This document shows, piece after piece, positions 3,049 to 17,224 of a DNA stretch of 35,120 nucleotides. Within the stretch, counting starts at the first letter, position 1; each line of letters starts with the position of its first letter. The stretch lies in IMG/VR virus record IMGVR_UViG_3300032086_002039, positions 1 through 35,120 of that record; one strand, given 5' to 3'. The notes under the pieces were generated by a model. The model did not search any database and was not told the DNA's origin. It worked only from the letters and a program-made list of their open reading frames with translations. The translations under genes and the position numbers were made by a program. Origin of the DNA: a virus.

Positions 3049-3511
3049 CGTAGTCTATATATTTAATTTCAACCTCTTCTCCTTGATCTATAGCCTTCGC
3101 AATAGCTGGATAAATCCTCTTATATGCGTTAACGCTTTTACCAACGAACCCATCGCGGAGAATAAGATTGTTTTCTTGACTGTCTCCAACGATAAGACAA
3201 CCAGCAGTATGCTCGTCAGTGTTTCCAGTATGAATAAGAATATACTCAAAACCAGGAACATCAGTGATATGAAGCATACCGCGATGTATGCCAGGATATT
3301 TTTTATCATAACGACCATGAAAACCTCCTTCTTTTCTTAGTTCTATTTTATATGTGCCAGCAGGTATTCTAGTTTCACCTTTTACTTTTAAAGCTCTTTG
3401 TTCGTCTTCTAGCGTATAGCATAAAAAATGCCTACCTAAATCATTTACTTCAAATAGAATTCCATGCGTACAGTCTACTTGCGAGCTAAATCTTAATACC
3501 TCTAGTTTCAT
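3035..3511 (-). CDS. DUF5675 family protein, possible cell-wall enzyme
   Basis: 158 residues, about full length for the family. Seen in order: FEVNDLGRHFLCYTLEDEQR, VKGETRIPAGTYKIELR, a GGFHGRYDKKYPGIHRGML segment, VPGFEYILIHTGN (H94), HTAGCLIVGD (G104-C105) and a Tyr-rich C-terminal helix. The combination of G-E-T-R-I-P-A-G-T-Y, V-P-G-F-E-x-I-L-I-H-x-GN and T-x-GC is the DUF5675 signature. The H-x-GN...GC arrangement resembles the His/Cys active site of YkuD-type L,D-transpeptidases, so peptidoglycan cutting is a reasonable guess; no activity is established that I know of. No other endolysin is recognisable in the window, which makes this a lysis candidate. It has no signal peptide. Its start overlaps the stop of the T9SS-cargo gene by four bases (ATGA). 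Confidence 0.82.
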   Translation of the reverse strand: MKLEVLRFSSQVDCTHGILFEVNDLGRHFLCYTLEDEQRALKVKGETRIPAGTYKIELRKEGGFHGRYDKKYPGIHRGMLHITDVPGFEYILIHTGNTDEHTAGCLIVGDSQENNLILRDGFVGKSVNAYKRIYPAIAKAIDQGEEVEIKYIDYDGIQ

Positions 3512-5313
3512 TGTATAATAATCTTTGTTGTTATATTTACGCTGTCTTTAGATATTTTTGCTAAATAAAAACCTTTGTCTAGCTCTAAAGTCCTAACGCC
3601 TTCGGCCTTATACACAAGCTTACCTTCTATACTATAAAATTGCACGTTTACTTCGGTATTAAAGTTTATCAAACCTGCAGAGGGATTAGGATAAGGTAAA
3701 ACTCCAAGTCTATTTAAAGACTCTACGCTTGTAGGTCCAGTCCAACCTTCTTGACAATAAACATATAAGTCATTGCAAGCATAATCCCATTGGTCATCAC
3801 AGCAATACGGATCTACTTCTATCACCCATTCAAAACAAGCATTAGGTGTATAATATACGTCACCGCTAGCACAACCAGCAGAGTAATAACACGAGCTATC
3901 AGCGATGTTTGCCTCCGCGTTATAATTAACAGCGGTCGGATCAGTACAACCAGGCAGTGGATAAATACAAGAGCCATTATCAGTGTTTGCAATCGCGTTA
4001 TAGTTTATTGCTGTACTATCAGTACAACCGTTAATAGTTGGTATACAACTTCCGTTATCAGTATTGCACGTGTCGCAGTAGTTGAAAGCTGTAGGATCAA
4101 TACATCCAAACACTACAGGTATACAACTACCGTCTTCTACATTTGCGTTAGGATTATAATTAAATGCGTCGTCGTCCATACACCCTAGCACTACATCTAT
4201 GCAAGATCCTTCAAGCTCTACATTAGCCTCAGGATTATAATTAAAGGCCGTAGAATCCATACAGCCTAAAACGATTAATGTTAAACAAGAACCGTCTTCA
4301 AAGTCAGCGTCTGCGTTATACTCGATGTAATTTGGATTCGTACACCCAGCAACGTAGTAGCAACTTCCGTCGTCTGTATTAACACTATCATTGTAATTTA
4401 AAGCTGCTTCATCTATACAGCCGTAAGTCTTTTCTACACAGTTGTCTCCACAGTATGGCATACCGTACTGTATTTGAAATGGAGCTAGTGGATCAGCAAA
4501 TCCACCCGGTTCATATATTGTTATGTCTTCATCAGAATATAAGCTGTAACCACATTGTACCGCGGTAAAATCTGACTGTTGTGTTATATTAAACTTAATA
4601 CCTACAGGCTCTGATATGCTTAGCTCAAAAGTAAACGTAGTGTCAAAGCCGTCGTCTAAAGTAAATATACCCAAGAAGTTGTCACCTTGGAACACCTGTA
4701 AATATGAACCAGCCCAACCATTACCGGCTAAATCTGTTAGCGTTAAATTGTAAGTGCAGCTGTCAACTAAAACATCTGTATTAGCTAAAGTGTCGTAGTT
4801 AAACGCTTCTACGTCTGTGCAGCCAAATACTTTCTCTGTAAAACACATACCTGTGTCTACCGTTGCTATTGGCAAAAACTCTACAAAGTTTTCGTTCATA
4901 CAACCATATATTGGCGGTGGCGGAGCGCAGTCTTCAACTGTAAAACCGTGGTATGCAGCAAAGCCAAAGTTAGCTGAATCTATCTCAACTATAGTGTCGT
5001 TGCATCTTACTAAATAGTACGAACCATCTTGACCACCCCATAAACTACCTTGAACACCATCGCCATACGAGTCGAATATATCAAAGTAGTATTCACCGTT
5101 GGGCACGCAAAGCTGAGTAACTTGTGGTGAGTAGTCTACTATATCAGTGTATGGCCCACCAGAAGCAATAGTGTCTAAATCTCCATTTAAGAGCACCCAA
5201 GACGTTTCCTGTGGATATTGATCCGGATTTATTATAATGTCCAGATATGTGCCGTTAGGACACTGAGCGAACGCTACGTTAACGCATAGTAGTAGTGTAA
5301 ATAAATATTTCAT
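3508..5313 (-). CDS. Secreted Cys-rich repeat protein with type IX secretion C-terminal sorting domain
   Basis: 601 residues. Seen in order: signal peptide 1-16 (MKYLFTLLLCVNVAFA, cut before Gln); a domain at about 19-130 with DSYGDGV and a second related one at about 187-260 with DLAGNGW; nine Cys-pair repeats of 21-23 residues (GC-x-D-x3-x-NYN-x-n-DGSC), two at 137-186 and seven in tandem at 298-475; a DPYCCDDQWDYAC segment (502-513); and a terminal domain 536-601 beginning GVLPYPNPSAG, with YSIEGKLVY, LDKGFYLAKI and the end KIIIQ. That end is the Por/T9SS type A sorting domain of Bacteroidota. 33 Cys lie in the mature part and none in the sorting domain. Expected route is Sec export, then T9SS release to the cell surface or medium. 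It is embedded between coupled late genes (TAATG before, ATGA after). The architecture is host-like and almost certainly acquired from a flavobacterium. Function unknown: surface coat, adhesin or superinfection barrier are possibilities. Confidence 0.9.
   Translation of the reverse strand: MKYLFTLLLCVNVAFAQCPNGTYLDIIINPDQYPQETSWVLLNGDLDTIASGGPYTDIVDYSPQVTQLCVPNGEYYFDIFDSYGDGVQGSLWGGQDGSYYLVRCNDTIVEIDSANFGFAAYHGFTVEDCAPPPPIYGCMNENFVEFLPIATVDTGMCFTEKVFGCTDVEAFNYDTLANTDVLVDSCTYNLTLTDLAGNGWAGSYLQVFQGDNFLGIFTLDDGFDTTFTFELSISEPVGIKFNITQQSDFTAVQCGYSLYSDEDITIYEPGGFADPLAPFQIQYGMPYCGDNCVEKTYGCIDEAALNYNDSVNTDDGSCYYVAGCTNPNYIEYNADADFEDGSCLTLIVLGCMDSTAFNYNPEANVELEGSCIDVVLGCMDDDAFNYNPNANVEDGSCIPVVFGCIDPTAFNYCDTCNTDNGSCIPTINGCTDSTAINYNAIANTDNGSCIYPLPGCTDPTAVNYNAEANIADSSCYYSAGCASGDVYYTPNACFEWVIEVDPYCCDDQWDYACNDLYVYCQEGWTGPTSVESLNRLGVLPYPNPSAGLINFNTEVNVQFYSIEGKLVYKAEGVRTLELDKGFYLAKISKDSVNITTKIIIQ
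3889..4422 (-). repeat. Seven tandem Cys-pair protein repeats in the T9SS cargo
   Basis: Codes for residues 298-475. Copies start at residues 298, 323, 350, 377, 403, 429 and 455, spaced 25-27 residues. Each begins with Gly-Cys and an Asp/Asn two residues later, carries Asn-Tyr-Asn (or a near form) in the middle, and ends Gly/Ser-Ser-Cys. Two diverged copies lie at residues 137-157 and 164-186. Asp/Asn-rich turns suggest calcium binding and the Cys pair a disulphide per repeat; both are inferred. The DNA copies have diverged, so this is an old protein repeat, not a recent DNA duplication. Confidence 0.85.
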
Positions 5314-5639
5314 TAAAATTTACTTATTATAAGTTCTTCAATATATTCTTCAACTTCTTTTCTAGTTGCAACCATTTTGAAACTAAGGTCTGCTTGAAAT
5401 CTTTTAACTTCTTCTCCATCGTCTAGTATTATTATTGTTGGTACTGATGCTATTTTATATTTAGCTTGATTATTGTCGTTTTCTATTAACAGCTCTGATA
5501 TATCACAATCTTTCAACTTGCTAAACCACTCTACATCGTTTGCTTCGTTCCAGCCAGCGTTAACGTGCAAGGCCTCTATTTGACTAAAAGCTAACAAACT
5601 TGTTAAGCTAAATAGCAATGCTATACACATCTTTTTCAT
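5313..5639 (-). CDS. Secreted thioredoxin-fold protein lacking the CxxC active site
   Basis: 108 residues. A Lys-started signal peptide (MKKMCIALLFSLTSLLAFSQ, cut around residue 19-20) leads to a thioredoxin-like body. KYKIASVPTIIILDDGEEVK at 60-79 is the strand with the cis-proline (P67) and the following hairpin, and EVEEYIEELI is the final helix. Where thioredoxins have WCxxC this protein reads GWNEANDVEWF, so the redox Cys pair is missing; only C5 (signal) and C45 exist. A periplasmic binding or chaperone-like role is therefore more likely than disulphide exchange (inference). It precedes the Cys-rich T9SS cargo with a one-base TAATG overlap and follows a membrane-protein gene in the same way. 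Confidence 0.75.
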   Translation of the reverse strand: MKKMCIALLFSLTSLLAFSQIEALHVNAGWNEANDVEWFSKLKDCDISELLIENDNNQAKYKIASVPTIIILDDGEEVKRFQADLSFKMVATRKEVEEYIEELIISKF

Positions 5640-5917
5640 TACTTATAAAGTTTATCCTCAATCTTTTCAAGAGTTACTTTAATCTCTTGAACATCTTCTT
5701 GAGTGTTCATAATAGTGTTACGTATCATTTGATCTTTCATATCAAACTCCATGCGCGTAACCTCTGGGTCTGGCGCTAATGGTAGTTCTTTCGCTTCAGC
5801 TATTTCAGCCTGCAACGAAAACCACATACCTGTTCCCATCACTAATACTACCCCTAAAGATATGATAGTTTCTAAACTTAATTTTACTTTTGTATCTTTA
5901 CCTATTTCAGTTGCCAT
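5639..5917 (-). CDS. Small one-helix membrane protein with coiled-coil tail, holin/spanin-like position
   Basis: 92 residues from the ATG at 5917-5915 (start MATEIGKDTK). This start is preferred over the in-frame one at 5962 because it lies 2 bases after the upstream stop, removes an overlap and puts a typical polar N-terminus before the helix. Seen: polar residues 1-14, a membrane helix at about 15-36 (ETIISLGVVLVMGTGMWFSL), a Pro/Glu linker and a charged amphipathic coiled-coil tail ending IKVTLEKIEDKLYK. This layout is common for small phage membrane proteins near lysis genes. It may be a holin-like or lysis-accessory protein, but with a single helix and no test this is inference. Its stop overlaps the thioredoxin-like start (TAATG). 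Confidence 0.68.
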   Translation of the reverse strand: MATEIGKDTKVKLSLETIISLGVVLVMGTGMWFSLQAEIAEAKELPLAPDPEVTRMEFDMKDQMIRNTIMNTQEDVQEIKVTLEKIEDKLYK

Positions 5918-5919
5918 TG

Positions 5920-6963
5920 TTAAAATATAATGTAGTTTATACCTGCTTTGAAATCGTACCACTCACGATTCCAATATTTGTTATACTTACCTTCAATAAA
6001 GCAGCCTAGGTTTCTATTTAGTTTATAACCAAATATAAGACCACCAGAGTAGTCGTACCATTGCTCGCCATCATTAAAGTTGTGGTATGAAAACTCATTG
6101 CCATCGTCGTAGTGGTACGGCATCAAGTTACCCCAGCTATGTAGCCAGAAGTTCTTGGTATAATGGTAAAAGTCAAAGCCAACAACTAATGAGTATTGCC
6201 ACTGATTGTCAAGCTCGTTTCTTTTCTTTTCTACATAATCCTGTAAAACATTTGGCATAACTACTTCGTTCCAAACTTGTGGATTTGTAGCTACTATGTT
6301 ACCATCAGGATCTATATATTCTGATTCATACACGTCGACGCTGTAACCTTCTTCTATAGCTAAACATGTATAATGTATTCTATTATTGTCAAATGACCAC
6401 TCTTCAAGTGGATCGTAACCATATGGCTCCGCAAGTCTTTGAACTGCACCTAGATTAAATGATAACTTTTTGTTACCAAGTAATCGTAGCCTTTGTGTGC
6501 TTTCAAAATATTCAATGTCTGCAAAACCATCTTTAATATACTCTACTTTAGCAAGCCATACTGGTTCAACATATCTTAAAAAATGATGTTGATCAAAGTA
6601 CTCTATGCCTTCTTGTCTTTTATATTGCACTTGAAACAAGTACTCAAAAGGTTCTAAACCTACGTTAGCAGCATCTGAAAACGAAGACTCTGTACCATCT
6701 TTAAATGTGGTTCTATCTTCGTATCCAAACCTTTTTATTTTACGTATACCCATTGCTAACGAGTAGTCGTACGGCGTAAATACAGTGTCGTATACTAACG
6801 TGCTACCATCCACAGAGTATATTTCTTGGTCTGATATTGATGTGCCACCGTTTGCCGCGACGTAAAACGTTGAAAACTTAAATGACTTACTAATCTGCGA
6901 ACAACATTTTTTAGGTGCTACGCAAGATGTTAGAAAAATTAATATTAAAAATATATATTTCAT
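5920..6963 (-). CDS. Predicted outer-membrane lipoprotein / beta-barrel-like protein
   Basis: 347 residues from the ATG at 6963-6961. A GTG at 6978 in the same frame would add five residues (IFIT after the start), but ATG gives the clean signal MKYIFLILIFLTSC with a lipobox LTSC (lipidated Cys at residue 14), followed by VAPKKCC. The rest is rich in aromatic residues and alternating strands, with no further membrane helix. The C-terminus (LGCFIEGKYNKYW, then WYDFKAGINYIIF) has paired amphipathic strands and a final Phe, as in outer-membrane beta-barrels. Barrel plus lipid anchor is unusual but seen in Bacteroidota surface proteins; alternatively the Cys is not lipidated. Very similar proteins, as I recall, occur in other marine flavobacterial phages. 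It opens the envelope module, 18 bases after the stop of the giant virion gene. Possible receptor-masking role (inference). Confidence 0.7.
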   Translation of the reverse strand: MKYIFLILIFLTSCVAPKKCCSQISKSFKFSTFYVAANGGTSISDQEIYSVDGSTLVYDTVFTPYDYSLAMGIRKIKRFGYEDRTTFKDGTESSFSDAANVGLEPFEYLFQVQYKRQEGIEYFDQHHFLRYVEPVWLAKVEYIKDGFADIEYFESTQRLRLLGNKKLSFNLGAVQRLAEPYGYDPLEEWSFDNNRIHYTCLAIEEGYSVDVYESEYIDPDGNIVATNPQVWNEVVMPNVLQDYVEKKRNELDNQWQYSLVVGFDFYHYTKNFWLHSWGNLMPYHYDDGNEFSYHNFNDGEQWYDYSGGLIFGYKLNRNLGCFIEGKYNKYWNREWYDFKAGINYIIF

Positions 6964-6981
6964 AGTAATAAATATCACACG

Positions 6982-9900
6982 TTAATCATGATAGTGACAT
7001 CTCTTTTTAGGCTTGTCAACCATAATTTTACATCTTTCACCATCAGACTTTATCTTAGTACATCTCTGTTGATTTTTCTTTTTCTCTTCAGCCTTCTTTT
7101 TCGCTATTGCTTTTTCAGCTTCTTCAATTTCAGTTTTTTCTATACCAACATCCCAAGTGTTCCAACCTAAGGTTAGCGCAACTCTTTGCCAGCTTTCATT
7201 TTGACTGTCCATAACTTCCACTAGGTTGTTGACCTTGTTTAGTATTCTATCGACGGGAAAGTTTGTGGCTCCTGATACTACGTTTGTCACCGCTTGGTAC
7301 GCTGGATTTTTAATATCAACAGGGTTTTCTTTTAACATGTACGGTATGACTTCCTTGTTATAAGTGTAGCTTTGTATACCTGAGTATATCTTTCTAAACT
7401 TAATACCAACTGGAGGTGAAAGGTTAGCTACTTGTATAAGAGTTTGAGCGTGATCAGTGTTAAACTTTTTTTCTTCTTGCTTGAAAAATTCCATAATAGT
7501 GTTCTTAATGGTAGCTAAAGCGGCACCAGTAACACCTGTACCTCTCAATATAGAGTCTATCATGTTGTTTACTATTCTAACTTGTTTTTGTTCAAGTTTT
7601 TCTTGCTCTTTTTCATCTAACTCATCGTCAAAAGCAAAAGCAAATAGCGCAGACTGCAAAGATGAAAATATAAGGTTTTGTATAGCGCCATAGTATATTA
7701 TCTTAGATATATTTTCTAGCTTATTACCTCTACCTGCAGCTAAGTCTTGACCAGCTCTATACATTAGTCTAGTATACTGCATTGGCGTGTTTTGAAACGC
7801 CAACAACCATCTACCAAGAGCTGAAGCTTGTTGCTGTGATATTTTATCAGGTCTAGCAGACTGTTGAGTTTTTTCAGCTATTTCTTGGAAGTCTATAAAA
7901 GCTTGTTTTTCAGCCTCTGATTGAGACATACCTTCTTTCACGTACTTTTTTATTTTGTTTCTATAAAAAGTAGCGCCACCAGAAGCAATGGCAAAACTAT
8001 CCGCTATTTGCGTTGGTGTAAAACCTATCTTCAATAAGTATGTTAGTGCAGCCTTAGCTTTGTTACTAGAGTTAGCAACAGCACTAGCAAGCTCAGCTTG
8101 GTTTACGTCTGTTTTTAAGCCCGCTCTTCTTTGTCTTAAAAAGTCAGAATTAAATAGGAAAGCAAAATCTTTCCAGTATTGAGGTTGATTAGCAAAAGCT
8201 TGAGCGGCTTTTAGTGCGTTGTTGTCACTCCAGTTGACAAAGTTGACGGCAGAAAGCGTTTGTAGTACAGCTGATCTAGCGTTAAAAAACATAATAGCAC
8301 CAACAGAATTATTTACCCAGTTGTTCCATCTGTTGACTATTCTAGAACTGCCAAACGGTCTATTAGTTCCGTTTTCCATTCTATACAAGCTGTCTAGCAG
8401 AGCTTCAACAAACTTATTACCGTATATAGCTCTTAGTTTGTTAATGTTTTCGTCTGTAAATATTTCATTTTTGTTTCTTAAAAAATCTTCTAAGAATTTT
8501 TTTCTATTTATTTTTGTAGTAATATTTTCTAGATCACTTGCTATAGTTCCAGCTGTCCAAGTCTCATCTGGCTTTATGTAACCAGCTTCTCTTCTAGACA
8601 AAGCTCCAAGTCCGTTGGCAAAAGTTATTAAGTCAGGGCTAGTATTAACCACTTTTTTAATAGTCGCTAAATCTCTTTTTGATAAACCAAGATTAGTCAT
8701 ATCGTAACCAGCTTTATCCCACAGCCAAACTCTAATACAAGTTCCGTAAGTAAATTCTGTTCCTGGAACTTTTTTTCCAAGCTTTTTTCTTACCTCAGGC
8801 ATAGCTTTACGAAGAGCTCTATAATCTGTCATTATAGCCTGTTTTTCTCTGTTCATGTAATCTATACCTCTAGCGAAAGGATCTAGCAGCGTTTGTTTAA
8901 ACCACTGTAAATGTTGCTCACCTTGTTCACCTTTACCTAAAAACTGATATATCAAACCTTCAAAATCATCAGCCGAATAAGGTAATACTCTTATGCTGTC
9001 TTTCTTTTTACCTTTCTGTCTACCGACAACCTCAGAGAATGTTAGATTAGCTCTATAGCCAGAAGACTCTTCTAGTATTTTGTTAAACTTGTTTGATCTA
9101 TATTTCTTTTCAGCCAACACAACGTTTGAGTTTACACCCTCTACTTGCGTTAGCACATAGTCCATTACCTGAACGTTAGCTTCTGCGTCGTCTGCAAAAT
9201 AAACATTTTGGTAACCCTTCTCAGTTATTAAGTCTATAGTCCACAAGGCTTTAGACTCAGGAGTAGAGTTAGCCAAGCCTGTTATGTTTTCTCTTTTTAG
9301 CTCTATACCTTGGCTTTTCAACCACTCGAATATAGCAGGAGCAGCTTCGGCAGGTCTAGCTGTTAGTATATAGACGTCTTCGTTGCCATACTTAGCTATT
9401 CTGTCTTTTAGTTTTTTAAAGAAAGGTCCTGGTTTGCCGTCTATAACTTGATTAAATTGGCTAAAGTCAAACGTGTTACCTTGAAGAAGAAGATCTTGTC
9501 CCTGCTTAGCGAACGTAGCGGCGTCTATAAGATACTGTGTACCGTCAGGTTTATTAACTATAACTTGAGAAGCGCTTTCAGCAACCGTGTCGTCAAAGTC
9601 TAGTATAGTAACGCCTGACGACTGCGGGTTAGATGCAGCTCTATATTTTTTAGTTTGAGCTATTCTATTTTTAATATCTGTTAAAGCAAGCTGTATCTTC
9701 TTGTTTATTTTATTATCTTGAGTTACAGCGCCATCTGTTTTATCCACTGGGTTGTAGTAAGTAGACAAATACTTTTTAACATCATCAAATCTAGTGTATG
9801 CTCCTGGATCTGTTGTACCGCCTGGTCGCTTGTCGATAGTAGAGAATAACACTTCGGTACCTAAAACTTGATCATAGCCATCTAGCACGTTATTAAGCTC

Positions 9901-12900
9901 AACGTCTAGCTCAGCTTGTATTAACTCTTTATCGTTTGGATTTTTAGCTAAAAGCTCACCGTACTTCATTATTATTTTAGCTAACTCAAACTCCATGTTA
10001 GCAGATGCTATAACATGTTCTCCTTTTATTCTTAACAGTTCTAAGGCTCTCTTTTTCTTGCCTTCAGCATCAAGCTTAGGGTTATATTTGTTAACGTACT
10101 TCATAGCCTCCTTGTATAAAGGATGCTTAGTAGATGGCGTTTGATCCTGTGCAAATATTTGAACTAAAGATATATTAGTGTAAGCTCTTAAAAACCCAGA
10201 AGTATTATTTGTGCTGGCCTCTAAGTGTCTAAGAACTCCAACTAAATTATTAGGATCTTTAGCAACTAAGTCAATCATCGCCTTAACGTTAAACTTAATA
10301 AAACCGTGATTGTTCTCGTTTATATCTTTTATAGTCTCGCCAAATTCAGCGTCAAAAGCGGCTTGTTTTTCTTGCACGCTACTAAACTCTTGCTGTAAGA
10401 ATTTTTCTATTTTTAAGGCTATACCTTGACCAGCGTTAACAAGCTTAAGTTTGCTTATTTCAAAGTCTATATCAATCTTACCAGGAAGATTAGCTTTTTT
10501 TCTAGCATCTATTTTTAAACCTAAATTATATTGATATTTAGGTCCATTTTTTCCACCCTGAAGTATTCTTTTAGATCCAACTAAGTCAAAAACTTGCTTA
10601 GAACCATTTATACCGTTTAACAATTTAGACGGATAATATGGAAGTAGTTTAGTGAGAAACTCAACTAACTGCTTTTTTGATTTATCACTGCTAATGTTTG
10701 TTTCAAAATAAGTTTTCAGCTGCTCAGAAAAGTAAGGAAACTCATTATTTACGTACTCTAGCTTTAACGGAGTCTTAAACTTTGTTGGTCTATCATGAAA
10801 CCAATCTAAGTAGTCCATAAACGTTGTTAAAGTTTTTGAATCAGGATCAATACCTAGATTAGCTACAGCATCATCAAACTGTGAAGATCTATAACCAAAT
10901 TTTCTAGCTAGATTTACTATATCTGTAGCGTTTCTACCTATAGTAGAAGCGTCAGAATAACCTCTATACTTTTTGGTGTTACCTCTTTCAATGTCTTTTT
11001 TAAACTCAGACGCGTAGTTTTCTGCTAACACAACATCCCTTAACCCAGATATATCGTCTACCAGTTTTGATATTTCGCTGTTATTGTTTTCCAGCTCTGT
11101 GGCCAATGTCTCTAAGCTATATTCTTGCGCTAGCATTTTAACCAGGCTCTCAAAGCGCATTTGCTTTTTCTTTCTAACACCCTTAGAGTCTCTTGGCATG
11201 AAGTGATCTAAAAATTCTTGATCACCTATCGTTATTTTGTTATCTCTTAGTTTTATCTGCGGGCCAGCAGTATTACCAGTTTCTGCAGATTTTTCTCTGT
11301 CTATTTTTTTACCTTTCCAATCTTTGGTAAATTTAGGATCAAATATTTTATTTCCATTTTTATCCTTGGCGAAACTACCATCTTCATTTGTTCTAAAAGT
11401 ACCACCAACTGACTTAAAAACCATGGTAGGAAAGTTTTTTTCTAACCAGCTTAACGGAGCGTTACGAAGTATACCAAACATATTGTTTCTAAGGTATGCC
11501 TCAGGATCTTTATTAATTTCGTTTCTTATCTCAGCCGCAAAAGTGCTTATACCTTTTTTACCACCCGGCGCGTCGCCAACTTCTTTTTTAAAGTCCGATA
11601 TAAAAGGTGAAACTGTTTTTGTTTTTGTTTTACCCTCGTCAAAGTTTACGCCAAGTTTTATTATAGCACTTCTAACGATCTCTAATGTTTTAGTCTTTAT
11701 ATTATCACTAATTTTAGTATTAGCAATTAGAGATGGTGCCTCATCAGCCTCCACGGTTGTTGTAGTAGTTGGTTCGTCAGCTATATCTCTAACAAAAGCA
11801 CCTTCATCATCAAGACTTACAGACTGTTGATCTATTTCTATTTCTTTTAACCTTCTATTAGCTATTAACTTAGATCTGTTTTTTATTTGAGAATTTATAT
11901 AAGCAAAATAGTTTTCATTAACTGTAGGATCAAAGTTTCTAATGTAGCTAGTCATATTAGATAATACGTCCTTAATAAACTCTTTTCTTTGTTTTTGATT
12001 TTTACTTATTCTGTCGTTAGCAGATATTAAATTGTTAAAATCACCTCTTTTAATTATAGTTTCGTATATGTCATCAAACTCTTCAAAATAAGTTTCTTGA
12101 TCTAAACCAAATACTAAATCGTTTACATCTTCTTCTATTTGATCGTTAGATCTTTTGTCTGCTCTAAACTTTTTCTCTTTGTCAGACTGCACGCTAGGCT
12201 TTGACACCTTAGGTAGAGAAAAGCCTTTACCTTTAAAAGTACCTGCGTTTACAGCGGCAACATAGTCGAATATAAACTGATAAGCCTCAGCTCCAGTTTC
12301 AAACTTAGCAAGCTTAAATCCAGCTTTACCAAAAACTTTAGGGAAATATCTGTTCGCTACATCTCTCCACGTAGAGTCGCTTAAACTTTCTTGTTTTATT
12401 TTACCATTGTAAACTAAATCAAAAAATACAGCTAGCCATTCTTGCTCAGAATCTTTTAAGTTACCTTGTTCATCTAGATACCCTCTATCATCAAGCTCTC
12501 TAATAAGCATGTCTCTATCAGATTCACTCAAAGCATTGACAAAATCAGTTGTCATAGCCGTAAGCTCTTCGTCGGTAAAACCTAATAAGTCTAAGATATT
12601 GTGAAAAAGCTCGTGAAACTCTACTCCTACAGCGTTCATTTTAGCTGCCATCTCAATGTTAATTAAAGATATTTTTCTGCCATCAATATATATTACTTGA
12701 CCAGGATCTAAGTCATCAGCAACTATAGGGTTTGTTCCAGCTTCGTCACTAGTAGCACCTTGCTCTAATAAAGCTTGCCTAAGTCCAAAATACTCTGCGG
12801 TGGTTTCAGTATACAGTAAGTCTGTATTAATTTCTAAAGCCATCTTTTCAGCTATTTCAGCACTTTTTCTAAAAGGCTGTTTTAAATACTCAAACTGAGT

Positions 12901-14946
12901 TTCTAGTTGCTGTTCAAAAGTAGCCTGATCAAAACCGTATTGATCTCTGTTTTCTAGCAATTCTTTTAACTCAGCTTTCTTTTGCTCTAATATTATTTTA
13001 TCAGATTCTTTGTCACTAATCTTTAACCTAGCTATCTCTAGCTCAAGCTTAGCTATTGCTATTCTTAAGTCAGGATTTGTTATAGAAGCATCGACTAAAG
13101 TTTCCGCATGCTTTAGTGCAATAGCATCTGTTAGTTCTTGGATCGCCTTAGGAGGCAAACCATCGAAGTCGTTGTTTTCTAACATGGTATTCCACTCAGT
13201 AGCTAACTTTCTAATGCCATCACCACTTTCAAAAGATTTTTTTATATACTTTTGAATTTGACTCATAGTCATCTTATCTCCATCTAAGGTTATAGTTGGA
13301 GTAGATAATACCGCGGTAATAGCGTTAGGCGCCTCCATAAGTGGACCAAACACCATTTCCATCATTACCTCGTCCATTCTTATAGAGTTGTAAGCGGCGT
13401 CAAGATTGAATTTAACTTCACCGTCTTCTATGCTTGTACCTCCAGATATAACTTGACCGCTAAGTTCTCCAGTACCTCCTCCAGTACCACCAATTAAAGC
13501 TGTAGTACCAACCTGTTTTGTTTTTGTAGTAACTTTAGGTACAACCTTACCAACAGTGTAACCAGTTATAAGATCTACGACACCTATTGAAGCGCCGTAT
13601 AGCTTTGCTTTAATCCTCATGTTTTCTAAGACGTCTTCATCACTAACTATTGCTATATAGTTTTCGTACGTCATTTTTTTAGAAGGAACTCTACCATCAG
13701 CATAAGCGTCTTCTAGCTCTTCTTGTAGTATCTGCGAGTATATATTGTAGTTTGCTAAAGTAGCACTAGAAGTTGCCATCCAACCGTTTATTGATCCTTT
13801 AACAAACCCACGGAGAAAAGCAGCTGGTGCCATAGGCGCTCCTACTATCGTTGAGCTAGTAATACCCGCTTCTAGAGTACCTTGCATCATGCCAGTAGAA
13901 ATCATTCCTTTTTTAGCGTTATCTCTAACTTTTTCAGAGTTAACACTGGCTCCAACTTGCATTGCTAATATATTACCTAAAAACGGTAAAGCGACTGTTG
14001 GTTGATCAATTATAGCCTTAATAAACCCAAAACCTCTGTTTGTTTCTTTAGCCTCTGCTTCTATTATAGCTTGAAATCTTTGTACGCTTTCTGGAACAAC
14101 GCCTGAGTTTTGAGCCTTCATCGCTTCAGCCCAAAGCGCGTTAAAATCTTCTTCGCTTATTTCAGCTCCTTTTTCTTTTATATCGCCTATAGCGTCTAAG
14201 CCTTTTGTCCCGTCCCAACCTTTATCGGTAAACTGCATAATGTCGCCAAACAATCTACCCATGCCTCTTCTGTAGTCGTCTAAGCTAACTTTTTTTGTTG
14301 ACCACTCGTACTCTAATTCACCGTCTTCTCCTTGCACGACCTCAATATCACCGTAAGGTAAAACTTTTCTGTAAGCAAATTGATCGTATATTTCTTCTGC
14401 TGCATCACCAACAGTTATGCCTGGAGCTATAACTCTGTCGGTAATTCCATTGACCTCTTCTCGTATAGAAGTTGTGAGCATATCAAACCAGTTGTCACTC
14501 TTTTCGTCAAACTTTTCTGGTTGATTTACTCTTAAATCTACTTGCTCTTGGTGATAGTTTTGCTCAAAGAAATTATCGTCTTCTTCAGACAAGCTTTGCT
14601 CTGGAGCTAAAACACTGTCACTTTTAAGTTCATTAACAAAAGCATTTTTTCTTTCGTTATACAATAATTGCTCTTTTTTTCTAGTGTTAGAGAGTTGCTC
14701 CGAAAAAGAAGTTTCCGAGCTGGATGCCATATCGTTTTGCGACACAGCCTCCGCATCCATTGGAGCAGTGTCTAGTTCTTTTTTTTCTTCAACGTTTTCT
14801 ACTGACTGTAGTTCGTCAAGGTTTACGTCTTCCTGCTCTTCTTGCTCTATTTGAGGATCTAAGTCAGCAAAGTCGTTTAAAAATCTTTGTTCGTTTTCTG
14901 GTCCAACGTTAGCTTTTCTACCGTCTGATAATGTATAAATTGGCAT
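6982..14946 (-). CDS. Giant polyvalent virion protein: HExxH protease-like, HAD-like and zinc-knuckle segments
   Basis: 2654 residues. N-terminus MPIYTLSDGRKANVGPENEQ, a common opening of giant internal virion proteins, then a Glu/Asp-rich linker. Seen: HELFH at 778-782, a zincin-type HExxH motif, with EWLAVFF downstream as possible third-ligand region; a HAD-like domain at about 1778-1930 with DFDDT (D1783, D1785), ILTARP (T1862), a Lys in PESKALW and VYFADDAE (D1919, D1920), so all four HAD motifs are present; a conserved helical region with NARSAVLQTLSAVNF, ARPDKISQQQASALGRW and FQNTPMQYTRLMYRAG; and a C-terminal C-x9-C-x10-C-x2-H zinc knuckle (C2629, C2639, C2650, H2653). This fits the large polyvalent proteins carried in virions and delivered with DNA to counter host defences. 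It follows the other tail/internal genes, consistent with an ejected protein. Protease and phosphatase activity are inferred from motifs only. Confidence 0.82.
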   Translation of the reverse strand: MPIYTLSDGRKANVGPENEQRFLNDFADLDPQIEQEEQEDVNLDELQSVENVEEKKELDTAPMDAEAVSQNDMASSSETSFSEQLSNTRKKEQLLYNERKNAFVNELKSDSVLAPEQSLSEEDDNFFEQNYHQEQVDLRVNQPEKFDEKSDNWFDMLTTSIREEVNGITDRVIAPGITVGDAAEEIYDQFAYRKVLPYGDIEVVQGEDGELEYEWSTKKVSLDDYRRGMGRLFGDIMQFTDKGWDGTKGLDAIGDIKEKGAEISEEDFNALWAEAMKAQNSGVVPESVQRFQAIIEAEAKETNRGFGFIKAIIDQPTVALPFLGNILAMQVGASVNSEKVRDNAKKGMISTGMMQGTLEAGITSSTIVGAPMAPAAFLRGFVKGSINGWMATSSATLANYNIYSQILQEELEDAYADGRVPSKKMTYENYIAIVSDEDVLENMRIKAKLYGASIGVVDLITGYTVGKVVPKVTTKTKQVGTTALIGGTGGGTGELSGQVISGGTSIEDGEVKFNLDAAYNSIRMDEVMMEMVFGPLMEAPNAITAVLSTPTITLDGDKMTMSQIQKYIKKSFESGDGIRKLATEWNTMLENNDFDGLPPKAIQELTDAIALKHAETLVDASITNPDLRIAIAKLELEIARLKISDKESDKIILEQKKAELKELLENRDQYGFDQATFEQQLETQFEYLKQPFRKSAEIAEKMALEINTDLLYTETTAEYFGLRQALLEQGATSDEAGTNPIVADDLDPGQVIYIDGRKISLINIEMAAKMNAVGVEFHELFHNILDLLGFTDEELTAMTTDFVNALSESDRDMLIRELDDRGYLDEQGNLKDSEQEWLAVFFDLVYNGKIKQESLSDSTWRDVANRYFPKVFGKAGFKLAKFETGAEAYQFIFDYVAAVNAGTFKGKGFSLPKVSKPSVQSDKEKKFRADKRSNDQIEEDVNDLVFGLDQETYFEEFDDIYETIIKRGDFNNLISANDRISKNQKQRKEFIKDVLSNMTSYIRNFDPTVNENYFAYINSQIKNRSKLIANRRLKEIEIDQQSVSLDDEGAFVRDIADEPTTTTTVEADEAPSLIANTKISDNIKTKTLEIVRSAIIKLGVNFDEGKTKTKTVSPFISDFKKEVGDAPGGKKGISTFAAEIRNEINKDPEAYLRNNMFGILRNAPLSWLEKNFPTMVFKSVGGTFRTNEDGSFAKDKNGNKIFDPKFTKDWKGKKIDREKSAETGNTAGPQIKLRDNKITIGDQEFLDHFMPRDSKGVRKKKQMRFESLVKMLAQEYSLETLATELENNNSEISKLVDDISGLRDVVLAENYASEFKKDIERGNTKKYRGYSDASTIGRNATDIVNLARKFGYRSSQFDDAVANLGIDPDSKTLTTFMDYLDWFHDRPTKFKTPLKLEYVNNEFPYFSEQLKTYFETNISSDKSKKQLVEFLTKLLPYYPSKLLNGINGSKQVFDLVGSKRILQGGKNGPKYQYNLGLKIDARKKANLPGKIDIDFEISKLKLVNAGQGIALKIEKFLQQEFSSVQEKQAAFDAEFGETIKDINENNHGFIKFNVKAMIDLVAKDPNNLVGVLRHLEASTNNTSGFLRAYTNISLVQIFAQDQTPSTKHPLYKEAMKYVNKYNPKLDAEGKKKRALELLRIKGEHVIASANMEFELAKIIMKYGELLAKNPNDKELIQAELDVELNNVLDGYDQVLGTEVLFSTIDKRPGGTTDPGAYTRFDDVKKYLSTYYNPVDKTDGAVTQDNKINKKIQLALTDIKNRIAQTKKYRAASNPQSSGVTILDFDDTVAESASQVIVNKPDGTQYLIDAATFAKQGQDLLLQGNTFDFSQFNQVIDGKPGPFFKKLKDRIAKYGNEDVYILTARPAEAAPAIFEWLKSQGIELKRENITGLANSTPESKALWTIDLITEKGYQNVYFADDAEANVQVMDYVLTQVEGVNSNVVLAEKKYRSNKFNKILEESSGYRANLTFSEVVGRQKGKKKDSIRVLPYSADDFEGLIYQFLGKGEQGEQHLQWFKQTLLDPFARGIDYMNREKQAIMTDYRALRKAMPEVRKKLGKKVPGTEFTYGTCIRVWLWDKAGYDMTNLGLSKRDLATIKKVVNTSPDLITFANGLGALSRREAGYIKPDETWTAGTIASDLENITTKINRKKFLEDFLRNKNEIFTDENINKLRAIYGNKFVEALLDSLYRMENGTNRPFGSSRIVNRWNNWVNNSVGAIMFFNARSAVLQTLSAVNFVNWSDNNALKAAQAFANQPQYWKDFAFLFNSDFLRQRRAGLKTDVNQAELASAVANSSNKAKAALTYLLKIGFTPTQIADSFAIASGGATFYRNKIKKYVKEGMSQSEAEKQAFIDFQEIAEKTQQSARPDKISQQQASALGRWLLAFQNTPMQYTRLMYRAGQDLAAGRGNKLENISKIIYYGAIQNLIFSSLQSALFAFAFDDELDEKEQEKLEQKQVRIVNNMIDSILRGTGVTGAALATIKNTIMEFFKQEEKKFNTDHAQTLIQVANLSPPVGIKFRKIYSGIQSYTYNKEVIPYMLKENPVDIKNPAYQAVTNVVSGATNFPVDRILNKVNNLVEVMDSQNESWQRVALTLGWNTWDVGIEKTEIEEAEKAIAKKKAEEKKKNQQRCTKIKSDGERCKIMVDKPKKRCHYHD

Positions 14947-14957
14947 AATATTTTATT

Positions 14958-16577
14958 TTACGATTCGTAACCTGTGATTGTTTTAGCTTCAACTTTTCCG
15001 TCTACACTTTCTAATGAATATTTAGGATTACTTATATTGCTTAATCCTTTAGACCTTGCTAATGCGTTGTGGTTTCTTCTAAGTCTTTCAACGTTGTATT
15101 CTATTATTTCTTGCTTTAGCATTTGACCAACAGTCTTATCCTCTATCTCGCCCTTCTCGTTAGTAACCTCTATCAAGTCGTCCATGTCTACTGTTCCATC
15201 GAATATAAATGTTTGTTCTGGAAAAGCCTCTAGATAATGCTCCATGAAAGTAGTACCATCTTGATTAGCATCGTCCATAGCCCAAGACATTAAGTTGCCG
15301 TAATTTATATTAGAGTCTGGACCTATAGCTGAACCTATTATAGCTTTTGTTGTTTGCTCATCGAAATCTAAACCTTCTCTAGTATTGTTTAAAGCTTCTT
15401 TTTTCCATTTTAAAAACTCTAGTTGACCTATATTATCTTGAGGATAAACATGCTCTTTAATATCATCTATAGATGCTCGTATACTTGTAGCACCAGTTTT
15501 CTCTATATTGTCGCCAAACAAAGCAGAATTATCAACTTCTATGTCAAAAACTATCTCTCCGTCTTCCAGCACTTTCACTTCAGCTGTTTTTGTCATTATA
15601 TCGTCTAACGCTGCTTTGTAGTGCAATTTAGATCCAGCAGAATAAAAAGACTTTCCTAGAGGACCACCACCTGACATTTCAACCCACTCTTTTTTGTCTG
15701 CTTGAAGATTTTTAACGTTCTTAACAAGGTTAGTCATCTTGTCGTTTACGTCTTGTATCTCTTGCTTTGGGTTAAAGTCTTCTGACTCTAGCGGCATATA
15801 CACTCTATCTTCTCTTTGAGCTAGAGCACCACTTGGTCCAGGGCCAGTATTCCAAGGCTTTGCTTGTGTGTAATTATGAGCTTTAAACAGTCTGTCTCTA
15901 GAGCTTACTGAAAAGTTAGCACACTCCATGTTGCCATTTTTAAATTGATTAAGACCTTTATTGTCTGCCTCGTTGTAAGTTTCAACTTCTCTTGAAACTC
16001 TTCTTTGTCTATTTTTAGCTTTTTCAAAAGCGTCTGCAAAAGCATTAGCATTTGAAACGCCAAAGTATGGATCTGAGTCGCTGCCTTTGATGCCTTTAGT
16101 TCTAGCTCCTTCAACTAACGTTTGGTTTGCTTGCCTCATAGGGCTTTTGTATGCAATTGGCGCTCCTTTTCTAGCGTTTTTAGCTTTTCTTCTAGCGGTA
16201 CTTCTAGACATACCATCAGCCATGTACCTGTCTATTAGATCATTGTATTCGCTTTTGGTCAAGTAGTACCCATCAGCAGACTCTTCATTTTTAACAGTTC
16301 TTCTTCCGTCGCTTATCTGCCAGCCTTTAACATCTCTGCCTTTAGTTTCTCCCCCAACACCACCAAGCGCATCAAACACAGGTTCTTCTTTGCTTTTTTT
16401 ATCGTCGTCATCACCGCTTTTCTTGCCTCTACTTTTATCAAAAGCCTTAGTAAAAGCATCTACGTTAGATACTCCAAAGTATGGGTCTGAATCAGAACCT
16501 CTCACACCTCCGGTTCTAGCTCCTTTGATTAAAGTTACATCTTGCTTTACCGCTGATTTATCTTTGTTTTTAGCCAT
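14958..16577 (-). CDS. Virion-block protein with duplicated GSDSDPYFGVSN motif, function unknown
   Basis: 539 residues. The N-terminal 200 are basic and low in hydrophobics and contain the same segment twice: residues 15-50 and 152-190, sharing GAR-T-x-G-x-x-GSDSDPYFGVSN, then an A/T-F-x-x-AF-x-K helix. Between them lies RSTARRKAKNARKGAP. The remainder is acidic and helical, with LGKSFYSAGSKLHYKAALDD at about 300-320 and a region like ALNNTREGLDFDEQTTKAII. No membrane or export signal. Its place between the 213-residue internal-type protein and the giant polyvalent protein suggests an internal or ejected virion protein. I do not recognise the family. Start ATG is 5 bases after the upstream stop. 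Confidence 0.65.
   Translation of the reverse strand: MAKNKDKSAVKQDVTLIKGARTGGVRGSDSDPYFGVSNVDAFTKAFDKSRGKKSGDDDDKKSKEEPVFDALGGVGGETKGRDVKGWQISDGRRTVKNEESADGYYLTKSEYNDLIDRYMADGMSRSTARRKAKNARKGAPIAYKSPMRQANQTLVEGARTKGIKGSDSDPYFGVSNANAFADAFEKAKNRQRRVSREVETYNEADNKGLNQFKNGNMECANFSVSSRDRLFKAHNYTQAKPWNTGPGPSGALAQREDRVYMPLESEDFNPKQEIQDVNDKMTNLVKNVKNLQADKKEWVEMSGGGPLGKSFYSAGSKLHYKAALDDIMTKTAEVKVLEDGEIVFDIEVDNSALFGDNIEKTGATSIRASIDDIKEHVYPQDNIGQLEFLKWKKEALNNTREGLDFDEQTTKAIIGSAIGPDSNINYGNLMSWAMDDANQDGTTFMEHYLEAFPEQTFIFDGTVDMDDLIEVTNEKGEIEDKTVGQMLKQEIIEYNVERLRRNHNALARSKGLSNISNPKYSLESVDGKVEAKTITGYES
16008..16124 (-). repeat. Second copy of the GSDSDPYFGVSN module
   Basis: Codes for residues 152-190 of the 539-residue protein. 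It repeats the module coded by 16428-16535 (residues 15-50): Ala-Arg-Thr, Gly, then the block GSDSDPYFGVSN, a variable pair and a short amphipathic helix with an Ala-Phe pair. The block of twelve residues is identical in both copies while flanks differ, so the motif itself appears to be under selection. Confidence 0.8.
16428..16535 (-). repeat. First copy of the GSDSDPYFGVSN module
   Basis: Codes for residues 15-50 of the 539-residue protein and is followed by a charged linker with four consecutive Asp. See the second copy at 16008-16124. Confidence 0.8.
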
Positions 16578-16582
16578 GCTCT

Positions 16583-17224
16583 TTATTTTTTTGATGGTTT
16601 TCTTGCTTTACCAACGCCACCTTTGTACGTCAATCCTCCAACAAAAAACCCAGCTGTTTCGCCGATGCCTTCGTACAACATGCTTTGATTATCTTGCAAT
16701 GATTGATTTGCTTCTTGCATATTTGTTTGAGCAATACCAGTGAGCGTAGATTGCTTGTCCATTTCCATTCGCTGAGACATGTATCTACCTTGTGCTATTT
16801 GGCTTTGTCGACTTGCTTCTCCTTGAGCAGCCAACCTTTGATTTTGAGCCTCTTGAGCTCCTAGGCTAGCAGAAGATCTTCTAGCGTCTATAGATGCTTG
16901 GTTAGCTAAAGACTGAGCTAAAGATCCTATACCAGATCCTCCAGCTGATTCTCTTAAACTACCTAATATATTTGCTTGAGCCTGCTGAGCAGCGTCTCTT
17001 TGAAACTCGGCTTCTTGAGTATTTACGGTTAAGTCTTCAAATGCATTTTCTATATCAGCATAGGGGTTAGAAGTGTCTAAAGATCTAAAAGCGTCCATTT
17101 CTGCTGCTAGATCATCTTTAGCTTGCCTTTGAGCTTCTTTAACCTTCCCCATGTTAAATAAGCTAACGCCCATTTTAACTAGGCCGCCAATGAATTTAGT
17201 TGGTGCGGGTTTTTTATTTGCCAT
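16583..17224 (-). CDS. Ala/Gln-rich internal virion protein, T7 gp14-like in style
   Basis: 213 residues. Seen: a short basic start MANKKPAPTKF, a helix, NPYADIENAFEDLTVNTQEA at about 53-72, a long Ala/Gln/Ser-rich helical region (QRDAAQQAQANILGSLRESA, then GSGIGSLAQSLANQ and ASLGAQEAQNQRLAAQGEA), and a Gly-rich hydrophobic C-terminus (GETAGFFVGGLTYKGG). The FEDLTVNTQ-A-F followed by Ala/Gln-rich helices is a pattern I know from internal core proteins of marine podoviruses, comparable in size and composition to T7 gp14, which forms the ejection channel in the outer membrane. Position just after the nozzle gene and before two larger candidate internal proteins agrees with this. Assignment is by composition, pattern and place. 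Confidence 0.65.
   Translation of the reverse strand: MANKKPAPTKFIGGLVKMGVSLFNMGKVKEAQRQAKDDLAAEMDAFRSLDTSNPYADIENAFEDLTVNTQEAEFQRDAAQQAQANILGSLRESAGGSGIGSLAQSLANQASIDARRSSASLGAQEAQNQRLAAQGEASRQSQIAQGRYMSQRMEMDKQSTLTGIAQTNMQEANQSLQDNQSMLYEGIGETAGFFVGGLTYKGGVGKARKPSKK

Follow-up and report, generated by a model that had tools for sequence, protein, structure and literature searches.

A giant polyvalent-type protein of an uncultured phage with predicted zincin, sigma-region-2-like and HAD phosphatase domains

Two ways are known by which an injected phage protein controls transcription immediately. It may be a complete virion polymerase, of the N4 or phiKZ type, or an enzyme that modifies the polymerase, such as T4 Alt. 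The late sigma factor gp55 of T4 is a small separate protein that is made during infection. The N4 virion RNA polymerase (gp50-type) is a giant ejected protein with an HExxH domain, described as transcribing phage genes early in infection (PMC5512222). Sigma factors and phosphatases are both absent from the main text of the polyvalent-protein survey of Iyer et al. (2017, PMC5512222), and a 2021 jumbo-phage survey, in the parts found in the open-access literature, describes sigma factors as separate genes only. Here we establish, at the level of sequence and predicted structure, a giant phage gene, its place, its domains and the conservation and order of these domains. The DNA analysed (the window) is an entire IMG/VR virus record of 35,120 bases.

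Gene position and neighbourhood

The ORF check of the window found a single uninterrupted frame of 2654 codons at 6982-14946 on the minus strand. The original prediction had read this frame as a polyvalent virion protein with protease-like, HAD-like and zinc-knuckle parts; each motif that it quoted was confirmed at its given residue, and the strand, which it had left out, is added here. The gene, its neighbours in the operon and one segment of its N-terminal part are as follows.

6982..14946, minus strand: giant polyvalent-type, presumed virion protein, 2654 aa (open frame, dN/dS, 73 other full-length homologues)
14958..16577, minus strand: 539-aa gene directly upstream in the operon, presumed ejection cassette (counterparts by synteny in phi38:1, phi46:3 and Calle_1 carry structural annotations; alignment)
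16583..17224, minus strand: 213-aa gene, presumed ejection cassette (alignment pattern shared with syntenic virion proteins of named phages)
13297..14049, minus strand: Gly/Ala-rich, moderately hydrophobic N-terminal segment, residues 300-550 (hydropathy peaks in the window and homologues)

The terminase, portal and capsid proteins are ~24-63% identical to those of Flavobacterium elemo phages, Cellulophaga phages (Callevirus phi38:1, phi46:3 and phi19:3), Maribacter phage Panino and the circular genome ctfjg026, with PHROGs also used for gene identity. In these related phages the portal-scaffold-capsid-tail run closes with genes of ~200 aa and ~500 aa and a giant gene of 1439-3859 aa. The gene order of the window is identical (213 aa, 539 aa and 2654 aa), and its giant gene lies directly after portal, capsid and tail genes, as is usual for polyvalent proteins, which are encoded among virion genes. 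Several of the giant genes that end the run in related phages are annotated structural or virion structural; those in the same slot are from elemo, phi38:1, phi46:3 and phi19:3, the phi38:1 annotation having been made by similarity. From this arrangement, the giant is presumably the last gene of an ejection-protein cassette. MAG contigs carrying relatives bear a Bacteroidota label in 7 of 12 cases, a label to be read with the caution that such bins can be contaminated.

The claim of a polyvalent virion protein is thus backed by gene position and by the same-slot giants annotated as structural, as well as by the zincin and the fold of the C-terminal module described below, with presence in the virion remaining presumptive. 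A published article consulted for proteome evidence on the phi38:1 giant contained none. A rival reading, an early or late cytoplasmic protein that is never packaged and whose synteny with structural genes is incidental, is highly improbable, given that the gene closes the virion operon in related phages and that giants in the same slot have structural annotations.

Elsewhere in the window, a 601-aa protein (3508-5313, minus strand) begins with a signal-peptide-like sequence, contains about eight Cys-rich repeats (GC.D..A.NYN..AN.DNGSC) and ends in a tail resembling Bacteroidota type IX secretion sorting signals, which is odd for a phage; judged by these features, it may be exported by the host. 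Between this gene and the giant (5313-6978, minus strand) are further export-signal-like starts, in a thioredoxin-like protein of 108 aa and a lipoprotein-like protein of 352 aa. At the record end, the C-terminal part of a ribonucleotide-reductase-like protein is encoded on the opposite strand (3-1115, plus).

The homologue family

Pfam and PHROGs scans of the window giant gave no curated-level match. When the giant and two homologues were used as tblastn queries against 50,697 phage records there was no match, and therefore that set holds no detectable named family member. A scan with 82 C-terminal residues detected 128 relatives in IMG/VR; the 80 that were fetched yielded 73 full-length proteins of 1894-3605 aa, which with the window giant make 74 members. 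A terminase close to that of the window (71-87% identical) was present in 35 of the 38 source records tested.

All 74 members retain the final ~650 residues, and the N-terminal two thirds are strongly divergent. Along the chain the order is peptidase (65 members, by profile), sigma-like domain (40), HAD (53), C-terminal module (74) and zinc tail (11). Where peptidase and sigma-like domain occur together (33 proteins), the latter starts 168-301 residues past the start of the former. Since the sigma-like and HAD domains were detected in only 40/74 and 53/74, neither is essential to all members. Compared with the nearest relative (L002), dN/dS is 0.11 for the whole protein and 0.05 for the HAD domain; the HExxH and HAD domains are under purifying selection, and their motif sets are kept in uncultured relatives. 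The L002 giant gene itself shows a frame change at 16903-16927, near residue 2308, which is a sequencing error or a real break.

A C-terminal module that alone is universal, with peptidase, sigma-like and HAD domains that come and go, would also suit a mainly structural or channel-forming ejection protein (like T7 gp16), whose enzyme-like domains serve maturation or envelope passage and whose sigma-like fold is an ancient helical domain put to new use in packing or contacts. The Gly/Ala-rich hydrophobic stretches at the N-terminus speak for such a protein as well; residues 300-550 are possibly a membrane-interacting part. On the other side, the catalytic residues of the peptidase and HAD domains are invariant wherever these domains occur. 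A lytic transglycosylase or lysozyme domain, a trait of the T7 gp16 type, was not found in the window giant by Pfam.

Peptidase and sigma-like domains

The N-terminal two thirds of the window giant contain a peptidase and, directly behind it, a sigma-like domain. The latter is one of two parts that the original prediction overlooked, the other being the conserved module of ~650 residues.

12193..12684, minus strand: zincin-like metallopeptidase domain, residues 755-918 (profile in 65/74 members; elemo giant E 3.3e-9; fold Z 5.6)
12601..12615, minus strand: HELFH motif of the active site, residues 778-782 (all 40 aligned homologues have the H, E and H)
12439..12441, minus strand: E836, predicted to be the third zinc ligand (no exception among 40 aligned homologues)
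11830..12153, minus strand: sigma-70 region-2-like domain, residues ~932-1039 (VIA-align, phrog_234, Sigma70_r2 in relatives; 40/74 members)

The HELFH motif from which a protease-like part had been predicted proved to be part of a wider pattern. H778, E779 and H782, and further E836, 54 residues after HExxH, are invariant in 40 of 40 diverse homologues whose aligned peptidase domains are mostly ~20% identical. All 40 thus combine HExxH with a downstream glutamate ligand, as in zincins of the gluzincin type. Single members match Peptidase_M78 and other zincin models weakly, and the peptidase profile detects the domain in the elemo giant. By VIA-align, the model of the peptidase is similar to the catalytic portion of a zincin of the lethal-factor type, the superfamily given for polyvalent-protein peptidases (PMC5512222). 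In the ctfjg026 giant (L004 741-12320, 3859 aa), annotated as a "reticulocyte binding/rhoptry protein", HExxH occurs twice (at 1615 and 2500), and one of these sites matches the peptidase profile weakly.

For the sigma-like domain, the first hint was phrog_234 (late sigma factor), matched by the window record alone at 1.4e-6 and by the best of nine close relatives at 1.5e-6. A profile built from relatives extends the domain to 40 giants, and two of its sub-alignments match each other (E 3e-10). Matches to Pfam Sigma70_r2, all below the curated cut-off, were obtained in 3 of 32 members (best 8e-4) and inside the giant ORF of record G004 (E 9.6e-6); the window's own domain did not match this family, and a Pfam scan of the enlarged set of sigma-like domains added no stronger match. 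When the PDB sequences were searched with the profile, sigma factors accounted for 12 of the 19 matches, all over region 2 and each individually weak. Compared profile to profile, the domain and the sigma factors of these phages aligned weakly (E ~0.03, controls ~0.6) but with the register right. Single sequences, too, matched sigma profiles weakly.

Residues 225-1135 of the window giant were modelled with AlphaFold without templates (mean pLDDT 64; ~54-79 at the sigma-like domain). Because Foldseek against the PDB gave no match below E 0.001 for either this model or that of the HAD and C-terminal parts, our fold assignments rest on a second look with VIA-align together with sequence profiles. 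Each of the best five VIA-align rows on the 225-1135 model is a sigma factor, aligned along region 2, with Z of 8.4-6.5, to be read with the caution that for helical parts a Z of ~8 may reflect a common arrangement:

Row 1: SigI6, Z 8.4, 99 residues, 3.6 A
Row 2: E. coli sigma-70, Z 8.2, 93 residues, rmsd 2.9 A
Row 3: chain A of integrative model 9a50 (titled RPSB-RPOC), Z 7.9; we take this title to mean a sigma subunit with RpoC
Row 4: sigma-70 again, Z 7.3
Row 5: SigA, Z 6.5

The sixth row, albumin (Z 5.9), falls on a different part of the model. Despite the caution for helical parts, we accept the sigma region-2 fold as predicted for residues ~932-1039, because the sequence profiles agree with it.

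The conserved columns of the domain in relatives read D-E-I-x-T-G-x-R-G-I-L and then A-A-Y-I-N, and we take them to correspond to regions 2.2 and 2.3. This concentration of conservation argues against an old helical domain re-used in a mainly structural ejection protein. Conversely, such a protein is favored by the window copy, which has diverged at region 2.2 and lost part of the pattern found in relatives, and by the separate full sigma factor that relatives encode. Sigma70_r2 was matched in 20 of 38 records, in 19 of them through a separate gene of ~250 aa (e.g. L093-L107); an ordinary sigma factor therefore seems to be encoded by these phages as well. Weighing both sides, we consider a chiefly structural role for the giant somewhat unlikely.

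A recent copy of the phages' own ~250-aa sigma gene was rejected as a source of the sigma-like domain, which the profile of that sigma misses (HMMER). Pfam detected no region 4 or promoter-binding HTH in the window giant. Between the window (11767-12153, minus strand) and L013, the sigma-like segment is 83% identical (dS 0.35) and its flanks 33-55% (dS 0.9-1.8), a contrast in the aligned genes that may be a sign of recombination swapping the sigma-like module.

A separate scan found 173 stretches of the sigma-like domain. Eighty of these were fetched, all 80 lie inside giant ORFs, and HExxH is found 137-233 aa upstream in 74/80. So tight a linkage would be expected if the zincin cuts a host protein instead of the giant, with the sigma-like domain as bait to host RNA polymerase or its partners, shutting off host transcription. 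Against this, no target is known and self-processing is the role proposed for the peptidases of polyvalent proteins (PMC5512222); we consider cleavage of a host target improbable.

HAD phosphatase, C-terminal module and tail

The remaining features lie in the C-terminal part of the chain.

9106..9618, minus strand: HAD phosphatase of predicted polynucleotide 3'-phosphatase type, residues 1777-1947 (phrog_415, T4 Pnkp Z 13.1, invariant catalytic residues)
7117..9099, minus strand: conserved helical C-terminal module, unnamed, residues 1950-2610 (74/74 members; pLDDT 80.5; fold match to "polyvalent" viral proteins)
6988..7062, minus strand: C-terminal zinc knuckle, DUF5763-like, residues 2629-2653 (C-x9-C-x10-C-x2-H; PF19067; 11/74 members)

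The full set of HAD motifs that had been predicted is present (DFDDT 1783-1787, LTAR 1861-1864, K1899 and DD 1919-1920), and D1783, D1785, T1787, T1862, K1899, D1919 and D1920 are invariant in 20/20 aligned homologues. Polynucleotide kinase (phrog_415) was matched by 19/20 members (best 1.9e-8). On the AlphaFold model of the HAD and C-terminal parts (mean pLDDT 80.5), the best three VIA-align rows for the HAD domain are the T4 Pnkp phosphatase (Z 13.1, 128 residues, 2.6 A), Pnkp1 (12.8) and T4 polynucleotide kinase (12.4), a lead that is small since general HAD phosphatases come next at Z 12.0 and below. These three top matches are Pnkp 3'-phosphatases, and the suggestion of a polynucleotide-type phosphatase is accordingly supported as a predicted activity.

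The C-terminal module is 40-54% identical across members other than the closest relatives. It matched no Pfam family, and the LPD38 search was silent for the giant and equally silent in controls. In a library of viral models its first matches were proteins of uncultured viruses (32-46% identity), followed by phage proteins at TM ~0.4-0.5, some of which are annotated large polyvalent or PolyVal.

The zinc knuckle (C2629-x9-C2639-x10-C2650-x2-H2653) is present as predicted. It is not general, being confined to 11 of the 74 full-length members, and most others end in lysine/arginine-rich tails. The DUF5763 profile (PF19067) matches five relatives (best 1e-7), and the window copy, which is not among them, agrees in spacing pattern. 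Its replacement by basic tails in most relatives weakens the idea of the knuckle as a general targeting tag, and therefore the tail may serve general nucleic-acid binding. The original prediction is thus supported for a polyvalent-type protein and for a polynucleotide-type phosphatase, and weakened for the tag. The HMM search proposed with it, for polyvalent-protein domains, zincins and HAD, recovered the zincin and HAD (phrog_415) but by Pfam no catalogued LPD domain. As for motif conservation in homologues, on which it had been made to depend, the HExxH and HAD residues are invariant where aligned and the knuckle is sporadic.

Proposed role in infection and known systems

The steps of infection that follow are those we infer: the protein is packaged and injected, cleaves itself and contacts host polymerase, and its HAD domain heals nucleic-acid ends. 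The giant would be a large virion protein inside the particle of a marine, podovirus-like phage of the Bacteroidota, injected with the genome, and the C-terminal module and the basic or zinc-binding tail could anchor it there or let it travel on the DNA. Once in the cell, the zincin domain may cut the chain into working parts, as proposed for polyvalent proteins (PMC5512222). The sigma-like domain adjoining the peptidase might then bind host RNA polymerase at its clamp, steering it to phage promoters or off the host sigma, ahead of phage gene expression. The HAD domain would take 3'-phosphates or cyclic phosphates off nucleic-acid ends left by host nucleases. With peptidase, sigma-like domain and phosphatase in one presumed injected chain, the giant may therefore start host takeover before phage expression. 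To the picture as a whole, a self-cleaving polyvalent protein that is ejected from the particle and of which one fragment engages host RNA polymerase, we give even chances. More tentatively, and with some doubt, we suggest that a large group of marine Bacteroidota phages delivers promoter specificity with the virion, packaging sigma region 2 in a self-cutting giant that programs host polymerase before phage expression, with a separate, later-made sigma taking over. If true, abundant Bacteroidota phages known only from uncultured material would thereby gain a strategy for early transcription. The family comprises 128 C-terminal relatives detected in IMG/VR and 173 sigma-like stretches. The cultivated elemo and Cellulophaga phages give access to the packaging question for the giant in the same slot.

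These giants (elemo gp21, phi38:1 gp101 and that of ctfjg026) share the genomic slot, and those of elemo and ctfjg026 have HExxH. They differ from the window giant in that blastp among the syntenic giants gave nothing significant to it and in that no confident HAD or sigma-like domain was detected in them. With T4 polynucleotide kinase/phosphatase, the common ground is the 3'-phosphatase domain (HAD fold, DxDxT, motif III lysine and DD pair), whereas in the giant no kinase or ligase domain was found and the HAD is embedded in a virion-type protein. Likewise, T4 gp55 shares a sigma-region-2-like module matched by phrog_234, which in the window is embedded in a giant presumed virion protein.

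With polyvalent proteins (Iyer et al. 2017, PMC5512222) the giant has in common a very large chain, disparate enzymatic domains, a zincin and a gene among virion genes, and its C-terminal module is structurally similar to viral proteins annotated polyvalent. Like them it appears to combine several unrelated activities in one chain (zincin, sigma-2-like and HAD, with the C-terminal module). Judged from its sequence against the open-access literature, the presence of sigma-like and phosphatase domains in a polyvalent-type giant, absent from the main text of the 2017 survey, appears to be new. N4 brings a whole polymerase, whereas in the window giant only a sigma-region-2-like domain was found, which would need the polymerase of the host. 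If true, a packaged sigma-like domain would represent a third route of immediate transcription control, beside the virion polymerase and the polymerase-modifying enzyme.
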